From: an uncultured Bdellovibrionales bacterium
GTDB lineage: Bacteria > Bdellovibrionota > Bdellovibrionia > Bdellovibrionales > UBA1609
Direction of reading: 5' to 3'
DNA length: 64,000 nt
NCBI GenBank assembly: GCA_903833275.1
Contig: CAILEP010000018.1
Span: 1 to 64,000, forward strand
Shown piece by piece: positions 141 to 13,671 of this stretch. A model generated the notes under the pieces. The model saw only the letters and a list, made by a program, of their open reading frames with translations. It did no database searches and was not told where the DNA came from. The number at the start of each line of letters is the position of its first letter. The stretch's first letter is position 1. Both the position numbers and the translations under genes were made by a program.

Positions 141-382
141 GTCTCACTCAGATTATGCAAGTCTCGTGGTTGTCGCACGGGCTCACGTGGGCCGCTGTTA
201 CCCTCGAGCTGTGCGGCCCCTTGTTATTATTGCACCCAAAACTACGCCCAAGGTTTGTTTGGGTCTTTATTCTTTTTCATATTTGTATATTTAGCTGCCT
301 AAGATTTACCGGAGTATTCAATCTGACAACAATCGTGGCCCTTATGTCGTTTTTCGTCGGGCCTCGAAAAGGTACGCCGTAA
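141..382 (+). pseudogene. 3' remnant of a multi-pass membrane protein gene, apparently cut by the IS
   Basis: Continuing from the inferred IS edge, the frame encodes about 80 residues with two or three hydrophobic helices and a charged turn (HPKLRPRF). The arrangement resembles the last helices of HTTM/vitamin-K-carboxylase-like proteins, but this assignment is weak. No credible start exists: upstream in-frame stops lie at 35, 56 and 71, and the GTG/ATG codons at 74 and 83 are inside the IS. The TAA at 380-382 is part of the REP palindrome, so the native C-terminus has probably been lost as well. I read this as a dead fragment, not a functional gene of 102 residues. Confidence 0.45.
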
Positions 383-429
383 CTTTTTTCCGCATCCGCT
401 TGGAAAAAAGTTACGGCGTACCTTTTCGA
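364..429. repeat. REPIN: perfect inverted pair of REP sequences (28-bp arms, 10-base loop)
   Basis: Bases 364-391 and 402-429 are exact reverse complements around a 10-base loop. The core GGTACGCCGTAACTTTTTTCC recurs at 30.2, 30.3 and 31.05 kb, next to a RAYT transposase gene. This copy separates the IS-damaged gene from guaD and ends one base before the guaD stop codon, so it could also act as a transcript-end hairpin for the minus strand. Confidence 0.9.
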
Positions 430-903
430 CTAGTATTTAACCTTATCGTCTTTAGCGGCCCATTCGTTAAAAACAGTAAGCGCTTCGTCGCGCAGAAGTT
501 GTTGCATCGGTATACTTCGATGTTCGATGGCGAGCGAAATCTCGCGGTATAAAAAGTCATCGTCAAAATTAATGTCGGCAGCATCGGTGCGGTTGTTGCT
601 GTAATAAATTTTACTTAAACGCGCCCAATAGATGGCGGCGAGACACATTGGGCAGGGCTCGCAAGAGGTATAAATTTCGGCGCCTTGAAGGCTAAAGGTG
701 CTTAAACTTTTGCAGGCCTCGCGAATGGCCACAACTTCGGCGTGGGCGGTTGGGTCATTGCCTGAGGTCACTTGATTCCAACCGCGGCCAATGATTTTAC
801 CATCTTTAACAACGACGGCGCCAAACGGGCCGCCGGCCCCCTTGAGCATGTGCTCGCGAGAAAGTCGTATTGCCTCGCGAATGTACTTATTGTGTTCTGC
901 CAT
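430..903 (-). CDS. guaD: Guanine deaminase
   Basis: A 157-residue cytidine/deoxycytidylate deaminase-fold enzyme that would convert guanine to xanthine. The zinc site is complete: HAE in TAHAEVVAIREA and PCPMC about 30 residues later. The C-terminal segment NNRTDAADINFDDDFLYREI, with its Asp/Phe-rich stretch, is typical of bacterial GuaD and not of the tRNA adenosine deaminase TadA. The ATG at 903 is preferred over an upstream TTG at 915 because a GAGGGGG ribosome-binding site lies just before it. It is divergent from the xanthine dehydrogenase operon, whose substrate it makes. Confidence 0.88.
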   Translation of the reverse strand: MAEHNKYIREAIRLSREHMLKGAGGPFGAVVVKDGKIIGRGWNQVTSGNDPTAHAEVVAIREACKSLSTFSLQGAEIYTSCEPCPMCLAAIYWARLSKIYYSNNRTDAADINFDDDFLYREISLAIEHRSIPMQQLLRDEALTVFNEWAAKDDKVKY

Positions 904-944
904 GGGCCCCCTCAATACCTTGATTTCAGCGAACTTTTTCTGAC

Positions 945-980: not shown

Positions 981-2399
981 ATGTATCGCAAGCATATCTA
1001 CCTTACAGTCAATGGTGAAATCATCGAGCTCGGCGGTAAAGAGGCGATCGCTCCGTTGAGTGATACTCTTCGCTATTATCTCGGCAAAACCGGTACGAAA
1101 GTGGTCTGCGCTGAAGGCGATTGCGGGGCTTGTACCGTGATGCTGGCGCGGGCTCGCGAAGGGGTTTACCGCTCGATCAATGCCTGCATTTACCCTACGT
1201 TTCTGGCCGATGGCTGTCACTTGGTCACTGTTGAGGGTCTGGCTAAGAACTCTGAGCTTCATGAAGTTCAACAGTCGATGATGCGAAATTTTGGTGGCCA
1301 GTGTGGCTTTTGTACTCCTGGGTTTGTCATGTCGTTGGTAAATCTTTATGAGCACAAGACGGCGCCCAAAGAACAAAATGTCAAAAATTACCTAACGGGC
1401 AATCTTTGCCGCTGCACGGGTTATCAGCCGATCGTACAAGCTGCACTTGATATAAATGCCAAGAAAATGAAATCGTTGGGCGAAATGTACCCGCTTAAGA
1501 AAGAAACCGAAACTCTCATTAGCAAAACGGCTCAGCCCATTTTGATTGAAATTGAAGAGCGAGAATTTTTCGCCCCGGTGACCTTACAACAGGCAGTCGA
1601 ATATAAAAATCGTCGACCGCATGCTCGAATTTTTTCAGGCGCGACAGATTTAGGGGTGCAAATAAACAAGGGCAAGTTCATAGGCGAGCAGCGCATGAGT
1701 TTGCATCTTCTTGAAGAGCTGAATGAAATCAAAGTTAACAACTCTGTTGTTGGCGTTGGCGCGCGAGTGACGTTAGAAAAGTTGCAGACCGTGATGGCGG
1801 CTCATGTGCCACAGTTTGCAGATTTCTTAAATATCTTTGCGTCGCCTCAAATTAAAAACTCGGCGACTCTGGTCGGCAATTTGGCCAATGGTTCACCGAT
1901 TGCCGATACCACGCCGTTCTTATTGGCTATGGACGCCCATGTGAGCTTGCTCGGGCCGAGTGGTCAGCGCGTGCTGCCGATTACACAATTTTTCAAAGGC
2001 TATAAGTCGCTTGATATGGCCGAGAATGAATTTATCACTCACATCTCTTGGCCTTTAGTTTTGGATAAGAAAACCAAAATCGGGCTTTACAAAGTTTCTC
2101 AGCGCCGCGATTTGGATATTTCATGCGTCAATGCCTGTTTTGTTTTTCGCATAAATTCAGGCGTGATTGAAGACGCACGAATTGCTTTGGGCGGAGTAGC
2201 GGCGGTGCCCCTTCGCTTAGGCGCGATTGAAAAAAGCCTATTGGGCCATGTGGTTTCAAAAGACTTAATCGCGAAAACCAATACACAGATCACCGATGCC
2301 ATTCAGCCTTTATCGGATGCTCGCGGTTCGGCTGACTTTAGAAAATCAGTAACCCAAGAACTCTTTCAGAAATTTGCCATGGAGCACCTTCAGCCATGA
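981..2399 (+). CDS. xdhA: Xanthine dehydrogenase small subunit (2Fe-2S and FAD)
   Basis: A 472-residue electron-transfer subunit of a molybdenum hydroxylase. Residues about 5-160 carry two [2Fe-2S] domains: the plant-type CxxxxCGAC set (CAEGDCGACTV) and the alpha-helical set (QCGFCTPG, then NLCRCTGYQPI). Residues about 190-360 are the FAD domain, with FSGATDLG and TLVGNLANGSPIADTTP near the isoalloxazine site. The remainder is the CO-dehydrogenase flavoprotein C-terminal domain. The two-subunit XdhA/XdhB layout matches bacterial xanthine dehydrogenases. The stop overlaps the xdhB start by 4 bases (ATGA), implying translational coupling. Confidence 0.93.
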   Translation: MYRKHIYLTVNGEIIELGGKEAIAPLSDTLRYYLGKTGTKVVCAEGDCGACTVMLARAREGVYRSINACIYPTFLADGCHLVTVEGLAKNSELHEVQQSMMRNFGGQCGFCTPGFVMSLVNLYEHKTAPKEQNVKNYLTGNLCRCTGYQPIVQAALDINAKKMKSLGEMYPLKKETETLISKTAQPILIEIEEREFFAPVTLQQAVEYKNRRPHARIFSGATDLGVQINKGKFIGEQRMSLHLLEELNEIKVNNSVVGVGARVTLEKLQTVMAAHVPQFADFLNIFASPQIKNSATLVGNLANGSPIADTTPFLLAMDAHVSLLGPSGQRVLPITQFFKGYKSLDMAENEFITHISWPLVLDKKTKIGLYKVSQRRDLDISCVNACFVFRINSGVIEDARIALGGVAAVPLRLGAIEKSLLGHVVSKDLIAKTNTQITDAIQPLSDARGSADFRKSVTQELFQKFAMEHLQP

Positions 2400-4744
2400 G
2401 CCAAATTCACGATTCGGCCCGCGGTTACGTAACGGGCTCGGCTGAGTACATCGACGATCGCCCCTTTGTAAGCGGCGAACTGCATGTCGAAGTGTTTTAT
2501 AGTTTGGTGGCCAAAGGTAAAATTAAAACTCTTGATGTCAGCGCTGCCGCCAAGGTGCCGGGTGTCGCCGCGATTTATACTTCAAAAGACTTGCGCCATA
2601 ACCTTTGGGGCTCGATTTTTGAAGATCAGCCTTATCTCGCCGAAAATGAAGTTCAGTATGTGGGCGAGCCAATCGCGGTGATTGCCGCTGAATCTAAAGC
2701 AACGGCTCATCTAGCTAAAACTAAAATTATAATTGAGTTCGAAAAATCAGAGGCTAAAGTCGCAACTCTCGATATTGATGTGGCGATTAAGAACAAAGAG
2801 TTTATTGGCCAAGAGCGTGCGATAATGCGTGGCGATGTCGACGCCGAACTTAAGAAAGCCAAGCATGTTTTGCGCGGCGAAATCTTTATGGCCGGGCAAG
2901 ACCATTTTTATCTCGAGTCTCAGGCCTGCGTGGTCTACCCCAAAGAAGATGATCAAATCGAAATTCATTCGTCATCGCAGCATCCGTCGGAGGTGCAGCA
3001 CTTAGTCGCCAAGGCTCTCGGGCTAAAATTTCATCAAGTTGTTTGCATTGTAAAAAGAATGGGTGGCGCCTTTGGTGGCAAAGAGTCTCAGGCCGCGCCG
3101 TTTGCGGTTTTTGCGGCGCTCGTCGCGCTCAAGCTTAAGAAGCCGGCGCGTTTAATTGTTTCTAAAGATGACGACATGATTATGACCGGCAAGCGAAACC
3201 CATTTAAGAATTTCTACGAAGTTGGGTTTAATGATGCCGGGCAAATCACGGCGCTGAAGGCGCGGCTCTTTTCTGACGGTGGGGCCTATGCCGATCTTTC
3301 GACAGCCATTATGGAGCGTGCGATGCTTCATCTCGACAACGCTTATTTTATCCCAAATTTTTCGGTAACGGGGCAGGTATGTAAAACGAATACTCCACCC
3401 AATACGGCGTTTCGTGGTTTCGGCGGCCCCAAAGGTGTCGTGACGATTGAAAGTATCATTGAAGATATCGCGCAATATTTGAAGGTAGACGCATTTAGCG
3501 TGCGAGAGAAGAATGTTTACCAAAAAGGGCAAACGACCCCATATGGCCAGACGATTGAAGATAATATTCTGCCAGAGCTTTTTCAGAAATTGAAAAAAGA
3601 AAGTAGATACGAAGAATGGCGAAGCGAAATTTCAGCGCATAATAAAGCTGGTGGTGCAACTCTGCGCGGGCTCTCGGCGACTGCGGTGAAATTTGGTATT
3701 TCGTTTACGACGCGATTTTTGAATCAAGCCAATGCTCTGGTCAATGTGCATCTCGACGGCACAATTCAGGTCTCAACTGGGGCCACAGAGATGGGCCAAG
3801 GCGTTAATACCAAGATTGCTCAAATTGTCGCTGAGTGTTTTTCAATTTCTGCGGGCGATGTTCGGGTTATGCCGACTTCAACAGAAAAAAACCCCAATAC
3901 GTCAGCGACGGCGGCGTCAAGCGGCAGTGATATTAATGGTCAGGCGGCACTTAACGCCAGCAACGCGATCAAAGAGAATCTGAATCGCGTCGCTCAGGCG
4001 GTTTTTGCCCGGCCTGTAGAAAATCGCGGGCGAAAAGTGGCTGGCACGGGCAATGTCGCCGAAATTGATATCAGTAAAATTGCTGTGGATGAGAACATTA
4101 TTTTTGAAAATGGTTTCGTAGCGAGTAAGAAGTCGCCAAAACTTAAAATATCGTTTCAAGATTTACTTCAAGAGGCTTACCTCAATCGCGTGCCACTAAC
4201 GGCACAGGGTCATTTTAAGTACCCGGGCATATTTTTCGACAAAGACGCGGGCCAAGGCACGCCATTTTTCTACTTCACAAATGGGGTCGCCGCGAGCGAA
4301 GTTTCGATCGATCGCTATACAGGCGAGCTCAAAGTTTTACGAACAGAACTCTATATGGATCTCGGTCGACCCATCAATGAAGCGATCGACCTCGGGCAGG
4401 TGACTGGCGGGTTCGTGCAGGGGATGGGTTGGGTCACCACAGAAAATCTGTTTTACAAAGAGGGCCGCTTGGTGACGTGCTCGCCGAGCACCTACAAAAT
4501 CCCAAGTGTTCATGACATACCGCGAGTTTTTAATTGCCATCTTATCGATAACGCACTCAATAAGAAAAATGTCAGGGGTAGCAAAGCCGTAGGTGAGCCG
4601 CCGCTGCTTTTAGGGATTTCTGTTTGGGCAGCGGCTAAAAATGCTTTGCAATATGGTACGGACAAACCTATTGCCTTAAATCTGCCGGCTACGCAGGAGC
4701 AGATTTTCACTAAATTAAAGGGTTCAGATGTTGCAGCTCGCTGA
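2396..4744 (+). CDS. xdhB: Xanthine dehydrogenase molybdenum-binding subunit
   Basis: A 782-residue subunit that binds the molybdopterin cofactor and oxidises hypoxanthine/xanthine to urate. Visible signatures are GQDHFYLESQ, GGAFGGKESQA, the substrate-channel motif AFRGFGGPKG, GATEMGQGVNTK and the catalytic glutamate in GSKAVGEPPLLLG near the C-terminus. Length is typical of XdhB. It overlaps xdhA by 4 bases and xdhC by 17 bases, so all three are expected from one transcript. The guaD, puuD and uraH context makes a purine substrate much more likely than an aldehyde. Confidence 0.93.
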   Translation: MSQIHDSARGYVTGSAEYIDDRPFVSGELHVEVFYSLVAKGKIKTLDVSAAAKVPGVAAIYTSKDLRHNLWGSIFEDQPYLAENEVQYVGEPIAVIAAESKATAHLAKTKIIIEFEKSEAKVATLDIDVAIKNKEFIGQERAIMRGDVDAELKKAKHVLRGEIFMAGQDHFYLESQACVVYPKEDDQIEIHSSSQHPSEVQHLVAKALGLKFHQVVCIVKRMGGAFGGKESQAAPFAVFAALVALKLKKPARLIVSKDDDMIMTGKRNPFKNFYEVGFNDAGQITALKARLFSDGGAYADLSTAIMERAMLHLDNAYFIPNFSVTGQVCKTNTPPNTAFRGFGGPKGVVTIESIIEDIAQYLKVDAFSVREKNVYQKGQTTPYGQTIEDNILPELFQKLKKESRYEEWRSEISAHNKAGGATLRGLSATAVKFGISFTTRFLNQANALVNVHLDGTIQVSTGATEMGQGVNTKIAQIVAECFSISAGDVRVMPTSTEKNPNTSATAASSGSDINGQAALNASNAIKENLNRVAQAVFARPVENRGRKVAGTGNVAEIDISKIAVDENIIFENGFVASKKSPKLKISFQDLLQEAYLNRVPLTAQGHFKYPGIFFDKDAGQGTPFFYFTNGVAASEVSIDRYTGELKVLRTELYMDLGRPINEAIDLGQVTGGFVQGMGWVTTENLFYKEGRLVTCSPSTYKIPSVHDIPRVFNCHLIDNALNKKNVRGSKAVGEPPLLLGISVWAAAKNALQYGTDKPIALNLPATQEQIFTKLKGSDVAAR

Positions 4745-5528
4745 GAAAATTCAAGAACTACAGAACTCGCGGCAGTCATTTGTACTGGTGACCTTAATGG
4801 GTCTTAGGGGCAGTGTTCCGCAAGTGGCAGGGGCAAAGATGCTGGTGACCACAAGCGGGCTCTATTGGGGCACTGTTGGTGGCGGTAAAATCGAAGCCCA
4901 TTCGATTCAATATGCGCAGAATTTGTTAAGCGGTCAGCAAGACCCTCACGCCCAGACTTGGAATTTGCAAAAAGACATCGGTATGTCTTGCGGCGGCGAG
5001 GTCACAATGTTTTTTGATATTAGTAAATCAGTAGGTTGGCATATTTCAGTTTTTGGCGCTGGCCATGTAGCGCAAGAGCTTTGTCGGGTCTTGGCGACCT
5101 GGTCTTGTCATGTTTCAGTTTTTGACCCTCGTGCGGAGTGGCTCGAGCGGCTGCCAAGTTCGGCAAATATTGATAAAAAATTATCAGCCCAGATGGGCAG
5201 CGAAGTAGCGAATTTGCCTTCTGGCAGTTACCTCTTAAGCCTGACACAGGGTCATGGCTTTGATGTCCCGGTGTTGAGTGCGGCGTTTAAGCGGTTCACT
5301 GATTTTTCTTTTATCGGGGTGATAGGTTCCGATGTTAAGGCTAAAAAAATTAAGGCTGAACTTCTCGCTCTTGGTGCCAACCCAGATTTGCTGCAGAAAT
5401 TGGTCTGCCCGCTTGGTTTGCCCATTGGCAATAATACTCCAAATGAAATTGCCATTAGTATTTGCGCGCAACTTTTAGCCGTCAGAGATCAAAGCAGTTT
5501 TCGCATCGAAAGAGGTTTATATGATTAG
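4728..5528 (+). CDS. xdhC: XdhC family molybdenum cofactor insertion/sulfuration factor
   Basis: A 266-residue XdhC/CoxI-type protein. XdhC proteins bind molybdopterin, protect it during sulfuration and insert it into XdhB. The N-terminal domain has RGSVPQVAGAKMLV and GTVGGGKIE. A Rossmann-like C-terminal domain begins around FGAGHVAQELCRVL and contains FDPRAEW. The ATG at 4728 is inside xdhB and the gene overlaps uraH by 8 bases at its end, in keeping with a tightly packed operon. Confidence 0.9.
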   Translation: MLQLAEKIQELQNSRQSFVLVTLMGLRGSVPQVAGAKMLVTTSGLYWGTVGGGKIEAHSIQYAQNLLSGQQDPHAQTWNLQKDIGMSCGGEVTMFFDISKSVGWHISVFGAGHVAQELCRVLATWSCHVSVFDPRAEWLERLPSSANIDKKLSAQMGSEVANLPSGSYLLSLTQGHGFDVPVLSAAFKRFTDFSFIGVIGSDVKAKKIKAELLALGANPDLLQKLVCPLGLPIGNNTPNEIAISICAQLLAVRDQSSFRIERGLYD

Positions 5529-5844
5529 CACGCACATCTTAGATTTGAATCTTGGCCAGCCGGCCAGCGGGGTTATGGTCGAGCTTGAAAAAAAAGCGGG
5601 CGATGATTGGCAAACGGTTAAAGAATCGGCGACCAATGCGGATGGCCGCATCCAGTTCGACATAGCGGCGGCGACGGGCGAATACCGCCTGACCTTTAAA
5701 ATTGAAGACTATTTTTTAAAAATGAAACTGGCGCCGTTTTTTACGGTGGCGCCCGTTACATTTAAAATCTCAGATACGAAACGAAAGTATCACATTCCGC
5801 TTTTACTCAATTCATTCGGCTACAGCACTTACCGAGGCAGTTAG
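5521..5844 (+). CDS. uraH: 5-hydroxyisourate hydrolase (transthyretin-related protein)
   Basis: A 107-residue transthyretin-like enzyme that hydrolyses 5-hydroxyisourate to OHCU. Family hallmarks are intact: the N-terminal HILDLNLGQPASGV, the internal TNADGRI turn and the exact C-terminal tetrapeptide YRGS that distinguishes HIUases from true transthyretins. No signal peptide is seen, so it is probably cytoplasmic. It lies between xdhC (8-base overlap) and the giant fusion gene (3-base gap), whose second domain catalyses the next step. Confidence 0.95.
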   Translation: MISTHILDLNLGQPASGVMVELEKKAGDDWQTVKESATNADGRIQFDIAAATGEYRLTFKIEDYFLKMKLAPFFTVAPVTFKISDTKRKYHIPLLLNSFGYSTYRGS

Positions 5845-5847
5845 TTT

Positions 5848-8800
5848 TTGAAAAAACCTGTGAACCCCTTTTTTGATATTCGCTACTACCACGATTTTAT
5901 TTCGCCAGCGCTTGCGACTCATTTATTAGAAGAGGCGACGCCGGTTTCAGGGGTCGAGGGGTTGGTTGAAGTGGGCCAAGGCGGTGGTTTAGAGTCCAAA
6001 GCCTCGCTGCAGTTTTTGTCAGAACTCTATGTCGCGATAAGAGACGATCTTAAAGCTGTATTGCTTCAAAGAGAAATTGATCGCAAGTTTCTTGATGAGC
6101 GAGTGAAGGCCTGCAGCCAGTTTAACGACGAATTGGGCCGAGATATTCTTGATTCGGATTATAAAACGGTGATTGGCCTTGAAGATTCAAAGGGTCGGGT
6201 TGTTATTGGGCCTCTCACAAAGGGTTATGCAAGTCGCGGGGGCAAGGCCATTGCCCCAGTGCCGAGTTTTTTGAAGGGCCCACATGTTACGCTTTTTGGC
6301 CCACCCGATAGTGCGAAAATGGCAGTTAATGCCATGAACGCCTACCATCGAAAAATAATTGGCGAACCCGCGATCGTAAGCGAGATTTTGAAAGACAGTA
6401 GCGTCGGCCCTATGTGGGGTGCGGACGACGAAGACTCGAAAACACCGCTTCGCGCTGATTTAGTCGATGCCGGGTTAAATCTTACGGCCTGTTTCGACAA
6501 GTCGATTGTCGTCAACGACGCTCAGAAAAAGTATGAACTTGCAAAAGATCACCTAGCGATGCCTATCAAGCGGTTTCCAGGCTTGGCGCTGCCCTGCACG
6601 TTTTTGTTTTTAGAAAAAAGCCCGATCCCGCTACATCTCTATGATTTCGCCCTCCATCTTTTTAAAAATTGGCACAACGAAACATCTTTAGTTTTTTACG
6701 TGCCAAAACTCGAGAACGAAGAAGAGGCACGCTATATACACAAAATGGTTTCAACTGCTGAGAAGATGATCAAGAATCTTCATCCAAAATATGTTTTGGG
6801 TTCAGTGCGGCTGATGATTGTATTAGAAAACCCGCGCGCCATTTTACGTACCCACGAAATAATCGATGCGCTTCACCCCTATTTCGTCGGCGCTTCTTTA
6901 GGATGGCACGATTATCTGGCTTCAACAGCGAGACTTTTTAAAGAAGATCATCATTATAGAATACCGGTGAAGGCCGACCCTGATATCGTCATAAAATATA
7001 TCAAGGCCTCGCATCTTCTCTTGGCTGATGTCGTCGGCTCGCGTGGGGGCATCAAGGTCGGTGGTATGTACGGCATTCTGCCTCTCGACGGCGATCTAAT
7101 GTCTTCGTCATTTCAGATGACGCTCAAAGGTTTTATCAAAGACGTTATTACTCAACTCAAGCGCGACCTGACTGGGTTTTGGGTCGCGCACCCTGACTTT
7201 GTACGCCTAGGGATTGCTCTCGTTGAGGCCTGGAAGTCGTATCAGGCCAAAAATAAAGATCCGTTGATTGAGCTTGTGCAATCGCTACTAGACAAAAAGC
7301 ATCACAAAGAAATTTTGAAGTGTATTTCGGCCAAAGACATTGAGGGCCTTGATTCAGCTGACCCAAATTATGTTCGTTCGCTGATCGTCGCCGACATTAA
7401 AGAATCTGATTTTATTGCAAATAATCACCCCGACGAAATTCGGTTTAATGTTTTTCAATCTCTGCAATATTTGACTGATTGGCTTTCTGGCAATGGCTGC
7501 GTGGCCCTGCCTTCGTCAATAAATGGTGTCGCGGTAAGGGTCATGGACGATTTAGCTACGGCTGAGCGTTCTCGGTGGGAAGTCTGGCACGAAATCTATC
7601 ACAAACGGTTCGCCCTCGACGATTTTTTGCGCATCGTGCACGAAGAAATGCTCTTTATTCGAAAAGATCTTTCGAATCAGAAGAAAATCGTACAAGTGAA
7701 GTGGAGTGAAAAAACTGAAAAATGGTACCCGGTGGCCATGCGGCTCATGCTGCAATTGATGACCGACCGTAAACCACCAGAGTTTGCCACAGAGCTTCTC
7801 TTGCCATTTACAGTTGAAAAAATTAGAGAGGCCCATGACCCCTGGCGGGCCGTCTGTGAGCTTGACCCCAATAAGTTTGTTTTGTCGGCTTACATAGAGA
7901 AATTCAATTACTACTTCGAGGCCTGCGGTTGCCAGAAATTTGCCTCAACAATGGCCCGGCTAGCCGCCCAAGACCTTAAGCTTGCAGAAAAATTGGTCTC
8001 TAGCTTTACGGTCAAGGAAATCAATGAGGCGGCGGCCTTTCATGGCAATATTGGCGAAGGCAAAAGCACTCTCGACCGACGTGCTCAAGCCGAGCAATCT
8101 CAGGTGCTTTCAGACGACGAAAGCGTGCGACAGAATTTGTTGCTGCTCGGCCAGAAGTATCAAGAAAAATTTGGGTTTAAATTTTTAATATCGGCAAAGG
8201 GCAAGTCATCAACCGAGCTGTTGGCGGCGCTTAAAAAACGCGCTGGCGGCAAACGCGATATTGAAATCAAAACCGCGGCACGAGCGCTAGCCGACATTGC
8301 TCTTTCTCGAATGCAACAACACCGCCTCGACAGTTTAGTCGAATCGATCGAGGCCCTGCGCGAGCGCCATAACATCAATTCGGTGAGTCTCGCCATCAAT
8401 TGTGGTCTTGGCGTTCAAAGTTTTGGGTTCGGTGAGGCAAGCGAATCGACTTGGTTTGAGCTTGCCTCACTCAGTAAACCGCTGGCCACGGCTTTCGCGA
8501 TCGATTACTTCGATCGTAAAGGCATTTCGCTCACGACATCGGTTAACGCTTTATTTGGGCAGACGAAATCGAAGTTTCGAATAGCAGCTGACACGGGTGT
8601 TGAAGGGGCTGATGACGTGCAGATTCTGCATCTACTGAATCACACCGCGCTCAATATGCATTACGTGACCGGCGTCAGTGCGCAGCTCGAAATGCCGTCG
8701 ATTCAGAATTGGCTCGGTGAAATTAGAATGCTCAATGAGCCAGGTAAGACCTTTAAATATTCGGGCGGGGGTTTTATTGTTCTCGAGCATTTGATCGAAT

Positions 8801-10509
8801 CGCTTGAGAAAAAATCAATTCAAGAGCTCACCAAGGCCTATTTTTCAAAACTTGGTTTGAGTGAAATTAGTTTTAAGCAAAAATCGAAAAAGAACATCGA
8901 ATATGCTCCAGGATATTTCGACGGCGGCGAAAAAGTCGTTGGCGGCAGAAATATGTTCCCAGCCTTTGCAGCAGGGGCGATGGGCACAGCTAAAGGTGTT
9001 GCTGATTTCTTAGAGTTGCTGACCAAGGCGCGCAGTGGGCTTCAGGGCTGTGCTGGGTTGACTCACGACGTAGGCGTTGAAATGTTACACGGCGTCTATC
9101 GCGGCGGTTATGATTTTATGGGCGCGGCGATGGGCCTCGGCGTTTTTATTGCTGAAGCGGGCCCAAATCGTGTGGCCATTCATCAAGGTGCAAACGAAGG
9201 TTTTCGCGCGCTTTTTGTGCATGTCGTGGCTGGGCCAGACAGCGGCAAGGGCCTCGTGATTTTATGCAATGCCGATAACCGAGGCGTATTATTTATTGCA
9301 GAAGCCGCTCAGGTAATTCTAAAGAATCTAGATATTCGCGGCATAGATTTTGATAAATTCAGTTCGGCCTTTCAGTATAAGAATATTGAACAAGAGCAAA
9401 TCGTTAATCTTGGCTATAAGAAACTCATTTTTGATGCCTTCGAGCGAACATTGCCAGAGGCGATCGTCGATAAGGGCCCTCTCGACCCGCTGGCGGAGTA
9501 CAATCTGGCCGTCGGCGCAGAAATTATTTCAGTTAACGACCAAAAATTCGCTCGAGCCGAAAATTTATTGAGTGATCATTTGCCAATTTTTGACCCAGAA
9601 CTTTTTGGCAGCCAAGGCAAAATCATGGATAGTTGGGAGTCCGCTCGCCACAACGAGAACGATTTTGATGTTTTGGTTTTTCGACTTACTAAGCCCGCAT
9701 TGATTAATTTTATTTCGCTATCGACGCAGTATCATGACGGCAACCACCCTGAATACGTGCGGGTGTTAGGTCGTGAAAATTGGTCTGACCCTTGGGTTGA
9801 GATTTTGCCAAAGACCAAATTGCAGGGCCATTCGCTTTTGCAGATTAAGCTCGAAGAATCGCTCGCCGAGTATTCGCAAATAAAGGTCGAAATGGCACCT
9901 GACGGCGGGTTGTCGCGAATTGGCCTTTACGAAGATCTGCCGGCGAAAATTAAGTCGCAATTTCGCGAAGAAACGGCAGCAAAATGTATTCGTTTTAAGG
10001 GCGAGATACCGAAGACTAAAAAGCCGCTTGTAATACCGTATTCTCCGAGCAAGGGTGAATTGGCGCAGAACTTTAAACGAGTGAAGGGCAAGTCGGTTGA
10101 TTTTGCTTCGCGAGCCTTCGGTGGCATTGTGGTAAGAGCCACCAACGAGCACTATGGGCCAGCCGCGCAGGTGATCTCACCCTACCCAGCGATCAACATG
10201 TTCGACGGTTTAGAGTCAGCCCGCAGTCGCGAAACCGGGCATTTCGAAGAAGTTATTTTAAAGCTGGGTAAAAAAATTGCGATTCGACGAATCGTTTTTG
10301 ATTTTCAGTTCTTTGTAAACAACAACCCGAAATTTGTGAGCGTCGAAGGGTTTGTGAATAATAAATGGCGTCAACTTGTGGCAAAGACAAACGTTAAGGC
10401 CTTTGCTGGCAATCAAAAGTCTTTTCAAATTACCAATCGGGCCAAGATTGATAAAATTCGCGTTTGCACCTACCCCGATGGCGGTGTCAATCGCATCAGG
10501 GTCTATTGA
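5848..10509 (+). CDS. Four-module purine catabolism protein: malate synthase-like / OHCU decarboxylase / serine hydrolase / allantoicase
   Basis: One uninterrupted 1553-residue chain starting at TTG 5848. Residues about 20-640 resemble malate synthase A: metal-ligand candidates E327 (VLEN) and D355 (GWHDY), the WVAHP motif, and catalytic-base candidate D568 in MDDLATAERSR. The glyoxylate-binding arginine motif (RPRGWHL in relatives) is rewritten around 237-249. Residues about 650-822 are OHCU decarboxylase: H732 in the HxxIG motif, AEQ at 748-750, then KFGFKFLISAKG. Residues about 825-1165 are a class C beta-lactamase fold with S874-L-S-K877, Y971-S-G and H1112-Q-G1114. Residues about 1215-1553 hold two allantoicase repeats (IMDSWESAR; MFDGLESAR; PDGGVNRIRV). 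Three modules are successive or nearby steps from OHCU to malate. The hydrolase module has no assigned role and sits where allantoinase would act. No signal peptide is seen. Its 3' end overlaps convergent puuD by 7 bases. Confidence 0.9.
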   Translation: MKKPVNPFFDIRYYHDFISPALATHLLEEATPVSGVEGLVEVGQGGGLESKASLQFLSELYVAIRDDLKAVLLQREIDRKFLDERVKACSQFNDELGRDILDSDYKTVIGLEDSKGRVVIGPLTKGYASRGGKAIAPVPSFLKGPHVTLFGPPDSAKMAVNAMNAYHRKIIGEPAIVSEILKDSSVGPMWGADDEDSKTPLRADLVDAGLNLTACFDKSIVVNDAQKKYELAKDHLAMPIKRFPGLALPCTFLFLEKSPIPLHLYDFALHLFKNWHNETSLVFYVPKLENEEEARYIHKMVSTAEKMIKNLHPKYVLGSVRLMIVLENPRAILRTHEIIDALHPYFVGASLGWHDYLASTARLFKEDHHYRIPVKADPDIVIKYIKASHLLLADVVGSRGGIKVGGMYGILPLDGDLMSSSFQMTLKGFIKDVITQLKRDLTGFWVAHPDFVRLGIALVEAWKSYQAKNKDPLIELVQSLLDKKHHKEILKCISAKDIEGLDSADPNYVRSLIVADIKESDFIANNHPDEIRFNVFQSLQYLTDWLSGNGCVALPSSINGVAVRVMDDLATAERSRWEVWHEIYHKRFALDDFLRIVHEEMLFIRKDLSNQKKIVQVKWSEKTEKWYPVAMRLMLQLMTDRKPPEFATELLLPFTVEKIREAHDPWRAVCELDPNKFVLSAYIEKFNYYFEACGCQKFASTMARLAAQDLKLAEKLVSSFTVKEINEAAAFHGNIGEGKSTLDRRAQAEQSQVLSDDESVRQNLLLLGQKYQEKFGFKFLISAKGKSSTELLAALKKRAGGKRDIEIKTAARALADIALSRMQQHRLDSLVESIEALRERHNINSVSLAINCGLGVQSFGFGEASESTWFELASLSKPLATAFAIDYFDRKGISLTTSVNALFGQTKSKFRIAADTGVEGADDVQILHLLNHTALNMHYVTGVSAQLEMPSIQNWLGEIRMLNEPGKTFKYSGGGFIVLEHLIESLEKKSIQELTKAYFSKLGLSEISFKQKSKKNIEYAPGYFDGGEKVVGGRNMFPAFAAGAMGTAKGVADFLELLTKARSGLQGCAGLTHDVGVEMLHGVYRGGYDFMGAAMGLGVFIAEAGPNRVAIHQGANEGFRALFVHVVAGPDSGKGLVILCNADNRGVLFIAEAAQVILKNLDIRGIDFDKFSSAFQYKNIEQEQIVNLGYKKLIFDAFERTLPEAIVDKGPLDPLAEYNLAVGAEIISVNDQKFARAENLLSDHLPIFDPELFGSQGKIMDSWESARHNENDFDVLVFRLTKPALINFISLSTQYHDGNHPEYVRVLGRENWSDPWVEILPKTKLQGHSLLQIKLEESLAEYSQIKVEMAPDGGLSRIGLYEDLPAKIKSQFREETAAKCIRFKGEIPKTKKPLVIPYSPSKGELAQNFKRVKGKSVDFASRAFGGIVVRATNEHYGPAAQVISPYPAINMFDGLESARSRETGHFEEVILKLGKKIAIRRIVFDFQFFVNNNPKFVSVEGFVNNKWRQLVAKTNVKAFAGNQKSFQITNRAKIDKIRVCTYPDGGVNRIRVY

Positions 10510-11666
10510 ATTAACCACTGATTAATTATAGCCCGCTCTTCGTCAGTCATAAGTGTTTTATTGCCGAGAGGCATGGTTCGGCCGACCACCACTTGAACAT
10601 GAATTTTGTCGGCGAGGGCGCGAACTTGAGCCTCATTTTCAAAAACAATCCCTTTGGGGGCCACTTTGAAAGTGTCGTCAGTCGGATTAGGGCTGTGGCA
10701 GGTCTGGCAACGGTTAGCAATGATGGCCTTTACCTGTTGAAAGCCAACCATTTCGGGTGCGGGCGGCAATTCGGGTGTTTGTGCCGTGATAAAAACCAAA
10801 AACGCGAAGCCAATGGCTGCCGGCAAAAGCACCCAGCGCTCGCGTGGTAATTTAGTGACCATCGCATGGCGTATTAGCGCGCCTGAAATAGCTAGGCAGA
10901 TAAGCATTACTAAGTTGTGCGAGTGATTGTAAATTGTCGGAAAGTGATTGCTCAACATGATGAACAGCACCGGAAAAATAAAATAAGTGTTATGCACCGA
11001 GCGCACTTTTGATTTCAGACTCACGCTATAGTCGGGTATTTGGCCAGCTTGGGCCTCTTTAAGCATCTTGCTTTGACCTGGTAGAATGCGAATCCAAACG
11101 TTTAGCAACATAAGCGTGCCGAAGATCACGCCCGTTTGCATGTAGGCCCCGCGCCCACTAAAAATACTAAAATTGAGAACAGTTAAGGCACTAAAAAATA
11201 TAACCGATAAGACGAGGCTTAAAGTTTTGGACCGAACCAAATTAGCATTCCAGATAAGATCATAGATTACCCACGCGGCCGCGATGATACCGAGACTTAG
11301 TGAGATGGCCTGCGTTTGCGTCCAGGCCCTGATCGACGAATCGACCAGAAGGGTTGCGCCGTTTAAATAATATAGAAAAATCAGAAGGCAAAAGCCGGTG
11401 AGCAGGGTGAGCGTGGCCTCCCATTTAAACCAGTGCAGTGTTTTCGGGATTTCACCCGGAAATATCTTTCGTTTTTCAACTTGATAATAGAACCCGCCGT
11501 GCACCATAAACACTTCACCCTCGACATTTTTGCGCGGGGTTTCTGGGGCAACAAACGAACTGTCGAGCCATATAAAATAGAACGAACTGCCAATCCAAGC
11601 AATGCCAGCGACGAGATGTGAAAAACGCAAAATGTATTCAAGCCAGAGATTTAAGCTCATCGACAT
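10503..11666 (-). CDS. puuD: Membrane urate oxidase with C-terminal cytochrome c (PuuD type)
   Basis: A 387-residue integral membrane protein with about eight hydrophobic helices in the N-terminal 290 residues (Urate_ox_N/DUF989 type; opening LRFSHLVAGIAWIGSSFYFIWLD). A soluble cytochrome c domain follows, with CQTCH (heme attachment) and a likely methionine ligand in RTMPLGN. PuuD oxidises urate to 5-hydroxyisourate and passes electrons to the respiratory chain, so no H2O2 is made, unlike soluble uricase. It supplies the substrate of UraH, encoded on the opposite strand. It is transcribed toward the fusion gene and overlaps its end by 7 bases. The ATG at 11666 is followed by another at 11660. 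Confidence 0.9.
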   Translation of the reverse strand: MSMSLNLWLEYILRFSHLVAGIAWIGSSFYFIWLDSSFVAPETPRKNVEGEVFMVHGGFYYQVEKRKIFPGEIPKTLHWFKWEATLTLLTGFCLLIFLYYLNGATLLVDSSIRAWTQTQAISLSLGIIAAAWVIYDLIWNANLVRSKTLSLVLSVIFFSALTVLNFSIFSGRGAYMQTGVIFGTLMLLNVWIRILPGQSKMLKEAQAGQIPDYSVSLKSKVRSVHNTYFIFPVLFIMLSNHFPTIYNHSHNLVMLICLAISGALIRHAMVTKLPRERWVLLPAAIGFAFLVFITAQTPELPPAPEMVGFQQVKAIIANRCQTCHSPNPTDDTFKVAPKGIVFENEAQVRALADKIHVQVVVGRTMPLGNKTLMTDEERAIINQWLIQ

Positions 11667-12808: not shown

Positions 12809-13507
12809 CTATCGAGGTGAGTTGTGATCTTTCAAAAACTGAAGCGTAAGAGCCCATGACTGTCGAGACGCCTCTTCGTTGTAACTGGGGCGTTCTTCGC
12901 AAAAGAACCCATGGTCGGCATCAGAAATCTCAACGCAAGTAAATTTCTTCTTCGCGCTCGTGAGGGCTTGATTTACGCTCTGTATTTGCTCTGGCGGGAT
13001 ATGCTTATCGAGGCCGCCCCAGAAAAATAGGAGCGGGGAATTTTGGGCCGCAGCTAAGTTCAAATTGCCTGGCGCAATGCGGCCGCCATAGTATGAAATG
13101 GCGCAACTAAGCGGCACACTCGCATTGGCGACAAAAGCCACGCGGCCACCCATGCAATAACCGATGGCCGCTACCGATTGTGCTCGCTGTGTTTTCTGAA
13201 GCCAATCGTAGCAGGCCTGGACGTCTTGTTGAAAACCCATTTCGTTCATGGCCGTAAAATGCGGCATCATCGATTGAAATTCTGTATAACCACAGGTGTG
13301 CCCAGGCGGGGCCGTGCGGTGATAGAGCTCAGGTGCGATGGCAATATAGCCTTCGTTTGCAAACCGCGTGGTCAGCCCCTTGATGTGGTTATTGACCCCG
13401 AAGGCCTCTTGCAGAATGATAATGGCCGTCGAAGTTTTTTTCTCCGGCATCGATACGAAGGCATTCATTTTCGTGCCATCGGCAACCGTGAGAGTTATTT
13501 GGTCCAC
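12809..13507 (-). CDS. Dienelactone hydrolase family protein
   Basis: An alpha/beta hydrolase of about 232 residues with the Cys-Asp-His triad of the dienelactone hydrolase family: nucleophile in GYCMGG, Asp in GGLDKHIPPEQ, and His in DADHGFF. The conserved N-terminal segment ILQEAFGVNNHI is present. I choose GTG at 13507 because GAGGAG lies 7 bases upstream; a longer reading frame to 13603 lacks such a site. Family members hydrolyse lactones and related cyclic esters. Its place upstream of the barrel protein and puuD hints at a purine or ureide link, but the substrate is unknown. Confidence 0.85.
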   Translation of the reverse strand: MDQITLTVADGTKMNAFVSMPEKKTSTAIIILQEAFGVNNHIKGLTTRFANEGYIAIAPELYHRTAPPGHTCGYTEFQSMMPHFTAMNEMGFQQDVQACYDWLQKTQRAQSVAAIGYCMGGRVAFVANASVPLSCAISYYGGRIAPGNLNLAAAQNSPLLFFWGGLDKHIPPEQIQSVNQALTSAKKKFTCVEISDADHGFFCEERPSYNEEASRQSWALTLQFLKDHNSPR

Positions 13508-13671
13508 GTGCAGTCTCCTCAGTATATTGGGCTCTGAACAACTTAGTGCGAGCGGCTGTTGAAAGCAATCGTGGTCGTTGATTTTGAGCGCGACGCGCGA
13601 CATGATAACAGGGCGATAATGTCGGCCGCGCGAAATAGCCCGACACTAAACACCTTCAAGTGAGTCTCTGT

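Follow-up and report, generated by a model that had tools for sequence, protein, structure and literature searches.

A serine beta-lactamase-fold module as a probable metal-free allantoinase within a four-enzyme purine-degradation fusion protein

Comparative genomics makes it probable, in our judgement, that a serine beta-lactamase-fold module (BL) carried by a purine-degradation fusion protein of a Bdellovibrionales bacterium is a metal-free serine allantoinase, non-homologous and unrelated to AllB or PuuE; the activity is inferred, and there is no biochemical evidence for it. To our knowledge, AllB and PuuE are the only allantoinases so far known, unrelated to each other, and BL would then be a third solution to the allantoinase reaction. 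We think it likely that BL represents a third independently evolved allantoinase class, acting through an acyl-enzyme in a four-enzyme chain that converts OHCU to malate by way of allantoin, allantoate, and glyoxylate, with possible handover along the chain; the acyl-enzyme route and any channelling are inferences. If the proposal is true, a fold familiar from antibiotic resistance and from enzymes of the cell wall would have a housekeeping role new to it. The missing step would also be accounted for in dozens of genomes from Bdellovibrionota and Planctomycetota in which degradation of urate otherwise seems interrupted, and the protein would be a natural fusion that couples the last steps of purine breakdown straight to central metabolism.

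The fusion protein is encoded at positions 5848-10509 of the window (the whole 64,000-nucleotide stretch of DNA that was analysed), in one open frame of 1553 amino acids with a TTG start; this frame and all its modules lie on the forward strand. We observed the Pfam domain order MS_TIM-barrel (residues 245-456), MS_C (529-648), OHCU_decarbox (712-823), Beta-lactamase PF00144 (834-1151), and two Allantoicase repeats, the first at 1223-1361. A previous sequence-only reading had placed a beta-lactamase fold between OHCU decarboxylase and allantoicase on one chain, which these boundaries bear out, while the malate synthase domains N-terminal of the OHCU decarboxylase went unmentioned in that finding. 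The malate synthase (MS) module (residues 1-660; 5848-7827; PF01274 and PF20659) passes the test for this family, namely a TIM barrel with catalytic Arg, Glu, and Asp plus a C-terminal Asp: R242, E327, D355, and the Asp of MDDLATAE align with E. coli malate synthase A (3cuz). It scores under the malate_syn_A equivalog cut-off. The OHCU decarboxylase module (residues 690-825; 7915-8322) meets its own test by matching PF09349 (71 bits, cut-off 24) and keeping the catalytic His of FHGNIGE and Glu of AEQS in alignment with OHCU decarboxylases 5uou and 3o7h. BL follows (residues 833-1160; 8344-9327; assigned by PF00144, a predicted model, and PDB matches), and the allantoicase module completes the chain (residues 1221-1553; 9508-10506; PF03561 in two stretches, 173 bits). 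The latter aligns with allantoicase 1sg3 and passes the two-repeat test; its score of 188.6 against the TIGR02961 equivalog model falls short of the cut-off of 277.9. Full-length orthologues of the fusion share 57-61% identity in seven other genomes of the order, and dozens more occur beyond it.

Upstream of the fusion, also on the forward strand, are genes for the xanthine dehydrogenase small subunit (981-2399; FAD_binding_5 and Fer2_2; TIGR02963 439 bits, cut-off 467), the xanthine dehydrogenase molybdopterin-binding subunit (2396-4744; TIGR02965 853.6 bits, cut-off 849.5), the XdhC maturation factor (4728-5528; PF13478 and PF02625), and 5-hydroxyisourate (HIU) hydrolase (5521-5844; TIGR02962 125.1 bits, cut-off 87.45). 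On the reverse strand lies a divergent PuuD-type urate oxidase (10503-11666; PF06181, 303.7 bits) whose C-terminal part, as read from the sequence, contains a cytochrome-like CxxCH (CQTCH). The pathway would start with a guanine/nucleoside deaminase-like gene (430-915, reverse strand; named by sequence reading) that would feed guanine into it and has relatives beside the fusion in nine other loci. At its downstream end the deaminase gene has a long near-perfect inverted repeat (window 365-433; ggtacgccgtaacttttttcc ... ggaaaaaagttacggcgtacc) that, by its sequence, looks like a strong terminator. Of the named enzymes on the path from guanine to malate, this locus lacks only allantoinase and ureidoglycolate lyase.

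We found no allantoinase within the 64-kb window, and profile searches confirmed an earlier statement that it holds neither AllB nor PuuE. The fusion protein itself gave no match to AllB (Amidohydro_1 or TIGR03178) or to PuuE-like polysaccharide deacetylases in profile searches, and none to AllA (PF04115) in a Pfam search. The source assembly of the window, which is 97% complete, contains four Amidohydro_1 matches. Its sole TIGR03178 match (259 bits, cut-off 357.85) is a dihydroorotase (NCBIfam 628.6 bits, cut-off 482), and the remaining amidohydrolases are HutI (imidazolonepropionase, by NCBIfam) and, by reading, an exported Amidohydro_3-like protein and a TatD-like protein. TIGR03212, the PuuE profile, has no match in this genome, whose single polysaccharide deacetylase is a NodB-like lipoprotein. 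Neither AllB nor PuuE was found above the curated cut-offs in the seven other fusion genomes of the order or in any of 50 further fusion genomes. A conventional allantoinase gene elsewhere in the genome would, according to the sequence-only reading, have refuted its proposal, and none turned up in the window genome or the 57 other fusion genomes. The best PuuE matches reached 20-31 bits against a cut-off of 424.6 bits. Almost all genomes give TIGR03178 matches below the cut-off; each one that was read or scanned is a dihydroorotase or a dihydropyrimidinase and not a hidden AllB. Since strong matches of this kind are found nearly everywhere, naive E-value annotation would falsely call an allantoinase. 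Because absence was judged by profile cut-offs on MAGs that are partly incomplete, a very divergent allantoinase elsewhere is not excluded.

Allantoin might instead be opened by another hydrolase, whether a dihydropyrimidinase/hydantoinase, HutI, dihydroorotase, or the product of a dienelactone-hydrolase-like gene at 12809-13603, an explanation to which we give very little weight. Dihydropyrimidinases can open hydantoins, and genome G038 encodes one approximately 5 kb downstream of its fusion. In approximately one third of the 50 further fusion genomes there is a second or a stronger amidohydrolase match below the cut-off, and several of those read are dihydropyrimidinase-like hydantoinases that could act on allantoin there. 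The window genome, however, has no dihydropyrimidinase, several fusion genomes contain just one weak amidohydrolase match, and HutI and dihydroorotase serve their own pathways. The dienelactone-hydrolase-like gene is conserved beside no other fusion. No conserved unknown neighbour recurs beside fusions as a candidate for the missing enzyme either; the only recurrent neighbours are guanine deaminase, molybdopterin genes, transporters, and, in Planctomycetota, uricase. The dihydropyrimidinase gene of G038 is part of a pyrimidine-breakdown cluster a few kb from the fusion (L025:7089-16247), together with genes for beta-ureidopropionase, an aminotransferase, a permease, and dehydrogenase subunits.

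The allantoinase reading of BL is further supported by a gene swap observed among relatives. Nine of 140 genomes of the order contain allantoicase: eight carry the fusion and no AllB above cut-off, and in the ninth (G084) a free-standing allantoicase adjoins the only AllB of the order above cut-off (551 bits), within the operon xdhA xdhB xdhC puuD allB alc uraD hiuH DUF6986. In a phylum-wide search, allantoicase was present in 96 of 368 genomes, and the AllB-containing operon recurs around its free-standing copies. AllB is adjacent in 23/27 free-standing allantoicase loci vs 0/85 loci with a BL-allantoicase fusion (Fisher p 4e-20), a value that overstates independence because it counts related genomes and includes a few of the fused loci twice. 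Of the four unfused exceptions, L218 is a contig edge, L225 and L227 are extra copies in genus g113, and L224 is a real unfused operon without adjacent AllB, from a genome that is 67% complete. The unfused Bdellovibrionota operon (puuD-allB-alc-uraD-hiuH-DUF6986, for example L080) resembles the fusion locus in pathway steps, phylum, and neighbours but has separate genes, with AllB for BL and DUF6986 for MS. The unfused set of AllB, Alc, UraD, HiuH, and DUF6986 or AllA is thereby matched by BL, Alc, UraD, HiuH, and MS, and since this leaves BL as the only hydrolase, BL corresponds to AllB. On the evidence of gene content, BL replaces AllB one for one and MS replaces DUF6986 or AllA. The sequence-only reading had proposed a non-homologous replacement of allantoinase and a comparison of pathways across genomes; the absence of AllB and PuuE together with the AllB swap supports that replacement, with activity on allantoin still inferred.

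We also considered whether BL processes ureidoglycolate, in place of AllA or a ureidoglycolate amidohydrolase, while something else opens allantoin. This step is likewise without a known enzyme, as neither the window genome nor the seven other fusion genomes of the order have AllA (PF04115), and amidohydrolase action on the ureido group would be a hydrolysis. AllA is equally missing, however, from the unfused G084, and hence from all nine genomes tested; because G084 has AllB and no BL, loss of AllA does not call for BL. The slot in question is filled in unfused operons by DUF6986 (21 loci) or AllA (two loci, L226 and L228), never by both, and in the fusion by MS. With BL in the AllB slot and MS in the DUF6986/AllA slot, an allantoinase is favoured over a ureidoglycolate lyase. 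AllA is a nickel-dependent lyase (PMC3793230), and given this dependence and the classification of urea release from ureidoglycolate as a lyase reaction, the step is a poor match for a serine acyl-enzyme. If BL acted on ureidoglycolate, moreover, no enzyme would be left to open allantoin in any of the fusion genomes tested. The ureidoglycolate role, which had been left standing as an alternative before this analysis, therefore appears unlikely to us. DUF6986 (PF22484), a domain without a known function, is encoded at the end of 21 unfused urate operons (among L206-L231), as at L080:5679-7025. As it never co-occurs there with AllA, we suggest that it, and by analogy MS in the fusion, may handle ureidoglycolate or glyoxylate. 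Our literature search, which did not reach subscription papers, found no mention of DUF6986.

The BL module matches PF00144 with an E-value of 1.1e-20 (74.5 bits, cut-off 27), passing the family profile test, and also passes the S12/PF00144 motif test (SxxK, Tyr, and KTG/HxG). The SxxK motif (S-L-S-K; 8467-8478, forward strand) would supply the proposed nucleophile S874 and K877 and is identical in 78/78 aligned modules. The same holds for Y, S, and G of the Y971-S-G motif (K-Y-S-G; 8758-8766, forward strand), whose Tyr is the proposed general base. The third active-site motif, of HxG type (I-H-Q-G), reads H1112-Q-G-A-N1116-x-G-x-R1120 (9181-9207, forward strand), with H1112-x-G1114 meeting the test; across the 78 modules its H, G, N, G, and R are conserved at 100%, Q at 99%, and A at 97%. 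S874, K877, Y971, and H1112 are identical in 8/8 order-level orthologues and in the 78 modules, which come from many genomes; the positions previously given for these four residues hold up. Additional invariant residues include H932, H938, Y939, G973, N1116, G1118, and R1120. The Asn of Y-x-N is absent, with Gly (G973) in 78/78 modules; this Asn is present in many but not all S12/PF00144 members and was not counted as family-defining. Because Gly takes its place, the deacylation chemistry of BL may differ from that of known relatives. Judged from these alignments, the BL motifs are real and under selection.

An AlphaFold2 model of BL, built on 68 homologues, reached a pLDDT of 92.9 and a pTM of 0.89. 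The predicted structure passes the fold test as a serine beta-lactamase/DD-peptidase fold, with Z scores of 30-34 over 300-333 residues to solved members. The closest are IS11 esterase (7spn), Pab87 (2qmi), LACTB, D-amino acid amidase (2drw), and R61 DD-peptidase (1ikg), with Z scores of 31-34 and 14-20% identity. BL was rejected as a class C beta-lactamase (NF033085, 28.5 bits, cut-off 415). Plasmid-borne, free-standing homologues of BL share only 25-29% identity over 70-75% and are generic serine hydrolases.

Genus g113 (G310-G312; L232-L234) does not fit this pattern. Its fusion is shorter, approximately 763-794 amino acids, and contains BL and allantoicase only; a separate MS gene (728-735 amino acids) lies about 2 kb away in G310 and G311 (L232 and L233). 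Phe replaces Y971 in the two genomes in which it was read (G311 and G312), and HHA replaces HQG in all three. The neighbours include AllA beside the fusion in G312 (L234) and class-V aminotransferases in G310 and G311. From these substitutions, the g113 BL is probably changed or inactive, and this split fusion with an altered active site counts against the allantoinase reading and remains unexplained. The tolerated loss of Tyr and HQG is what might be expected if BL had an accessory or a second hydrolase function (such as esterase or amidase action on some outside substrate) or if it merely linked its neighbours structurally, its chemistry being vestigial, and the closest solved folds do include an esterase (7spn) and peptidases or amidases. 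A linker, however, would not retain a catalytic set, and S, K, Y, H, N1116, R1120, and others are invariant among the 78 modules. BL also diverges at about the rate of the allantoicase module (48-54% vs 51-53% identity to order-level orthologues), and the replacement pattern indicates AllB. We regard an accessory or structural role as improbable.

Returning to BL as an allantoinase, we propose that S874, activated by K877 and Y971, would attack the C4 amide carbonyl of the hydantoin ring of allantoin. The ring would open to give an allantoyl-ester acyl-enzyme in which the leaving ureido nitrogen stays attached, and water would then hydrolyse the ester and release allantoate with no need for a metal. 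Opening of a cyclic amide by Ser, Lys, and Tyr is the chemistry that the beta-lactamase fold performs on beta-lactams. On a single chain, the OHCU decarboxylase would make allantoin, BL would open its ring, and the allantoicase module would cleave allantoate to release urea and ureidoglycolate, the latter being a compound on which some allantoicases also act. The ureidoglycolate step is likewise inferred, and glyoxylate could arise by such a side activity of allantoicase, by another enzyme, or spontaneously; the MS module would condense it with acetyl-CoA to malate.

BL shares with AllB, a metal-dependent amidohydrolase (TIGR03178), the proposed reaction from allantoin to allantoate and the position in pathway and gene cluster. 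The folds are unrelated, however, and AllB is a free protein that needs metal, whereas BL is a module within a fusion and has a Ser-Lys-Tyr set. PuuE (polysaccharide-deacetylase fold, TIGR03212) is the earlier known non-homologous replacement of AllB, and it too differs from BL in fold and chemistry; none is present above cut-off in fusion genomes. The S12/PF00144 hydrolases (7spn, Pab87 2qmi, 2drw, R61 1ikg, and class C beta-lactamases) resemble BL in fold, SxxK, and Tyr, and the HxG third motif is typical of R61-type enzymes. Compared to solved members (14-22% identity), BL has YSG for YxN and its own invariant residues H938, Y939, N1116, and R1120, and unlike these relatives it sits in a purine catabolic chain and is not secreted. 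The fold has been recruited to hydrolyse an ordinary amide in NylB, the 6-aminohexanoate-dimer hydrolase, although that amide is linear and NylB is a free enzyme of an unrelated pathway. We found no literature linking allantoinase to the beta-lactamase fold or to Bdellovibrio (subscription papers were outside the search).

The fusion occurs in 8 of 140 genomes of the order, spread over three families, and a scan of 84,980 species genomes returned 80 fusion loci, so that it is no assembly artefact. Nearly all of the 80 encode MS, OHCU decarboxylase, BL, and allantoicase in one frame of approximately 1500-1690 amino acids (shorter at contig ends), and they typically adjoin genes for PuuD or uricase, HIU hydrolase, and Xdh. 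The roughly 80 genomes belong chiefly to Bdellovibrionota and Planctomycetota. A tree of 68 fusions likewise contains these two phyla; a few of its records bear the names Pseudomonadota, Myxococcota, or Bacteroidota, such MAG labels being uncertain. At L102, L123, and L146 the frame is broken in two within OHCU decarboxylase or BL; these look like frameshifts or broken copies, the cause being unsettled and assembly error possible. In Planctomycetota-type clusters (L109, L113-L115, L125, L128, L132-L134, L137, L141, L147, and L159), HIU hydrolase is divergent to the fusion and the flanks contain no PuuD match. A cofactor-free uricase-like gene replaces PuuD in some Planctomycetota-type loci (for example, L159:5194-6105), and the fusion is therefore not bound to one type of urate oxidase.
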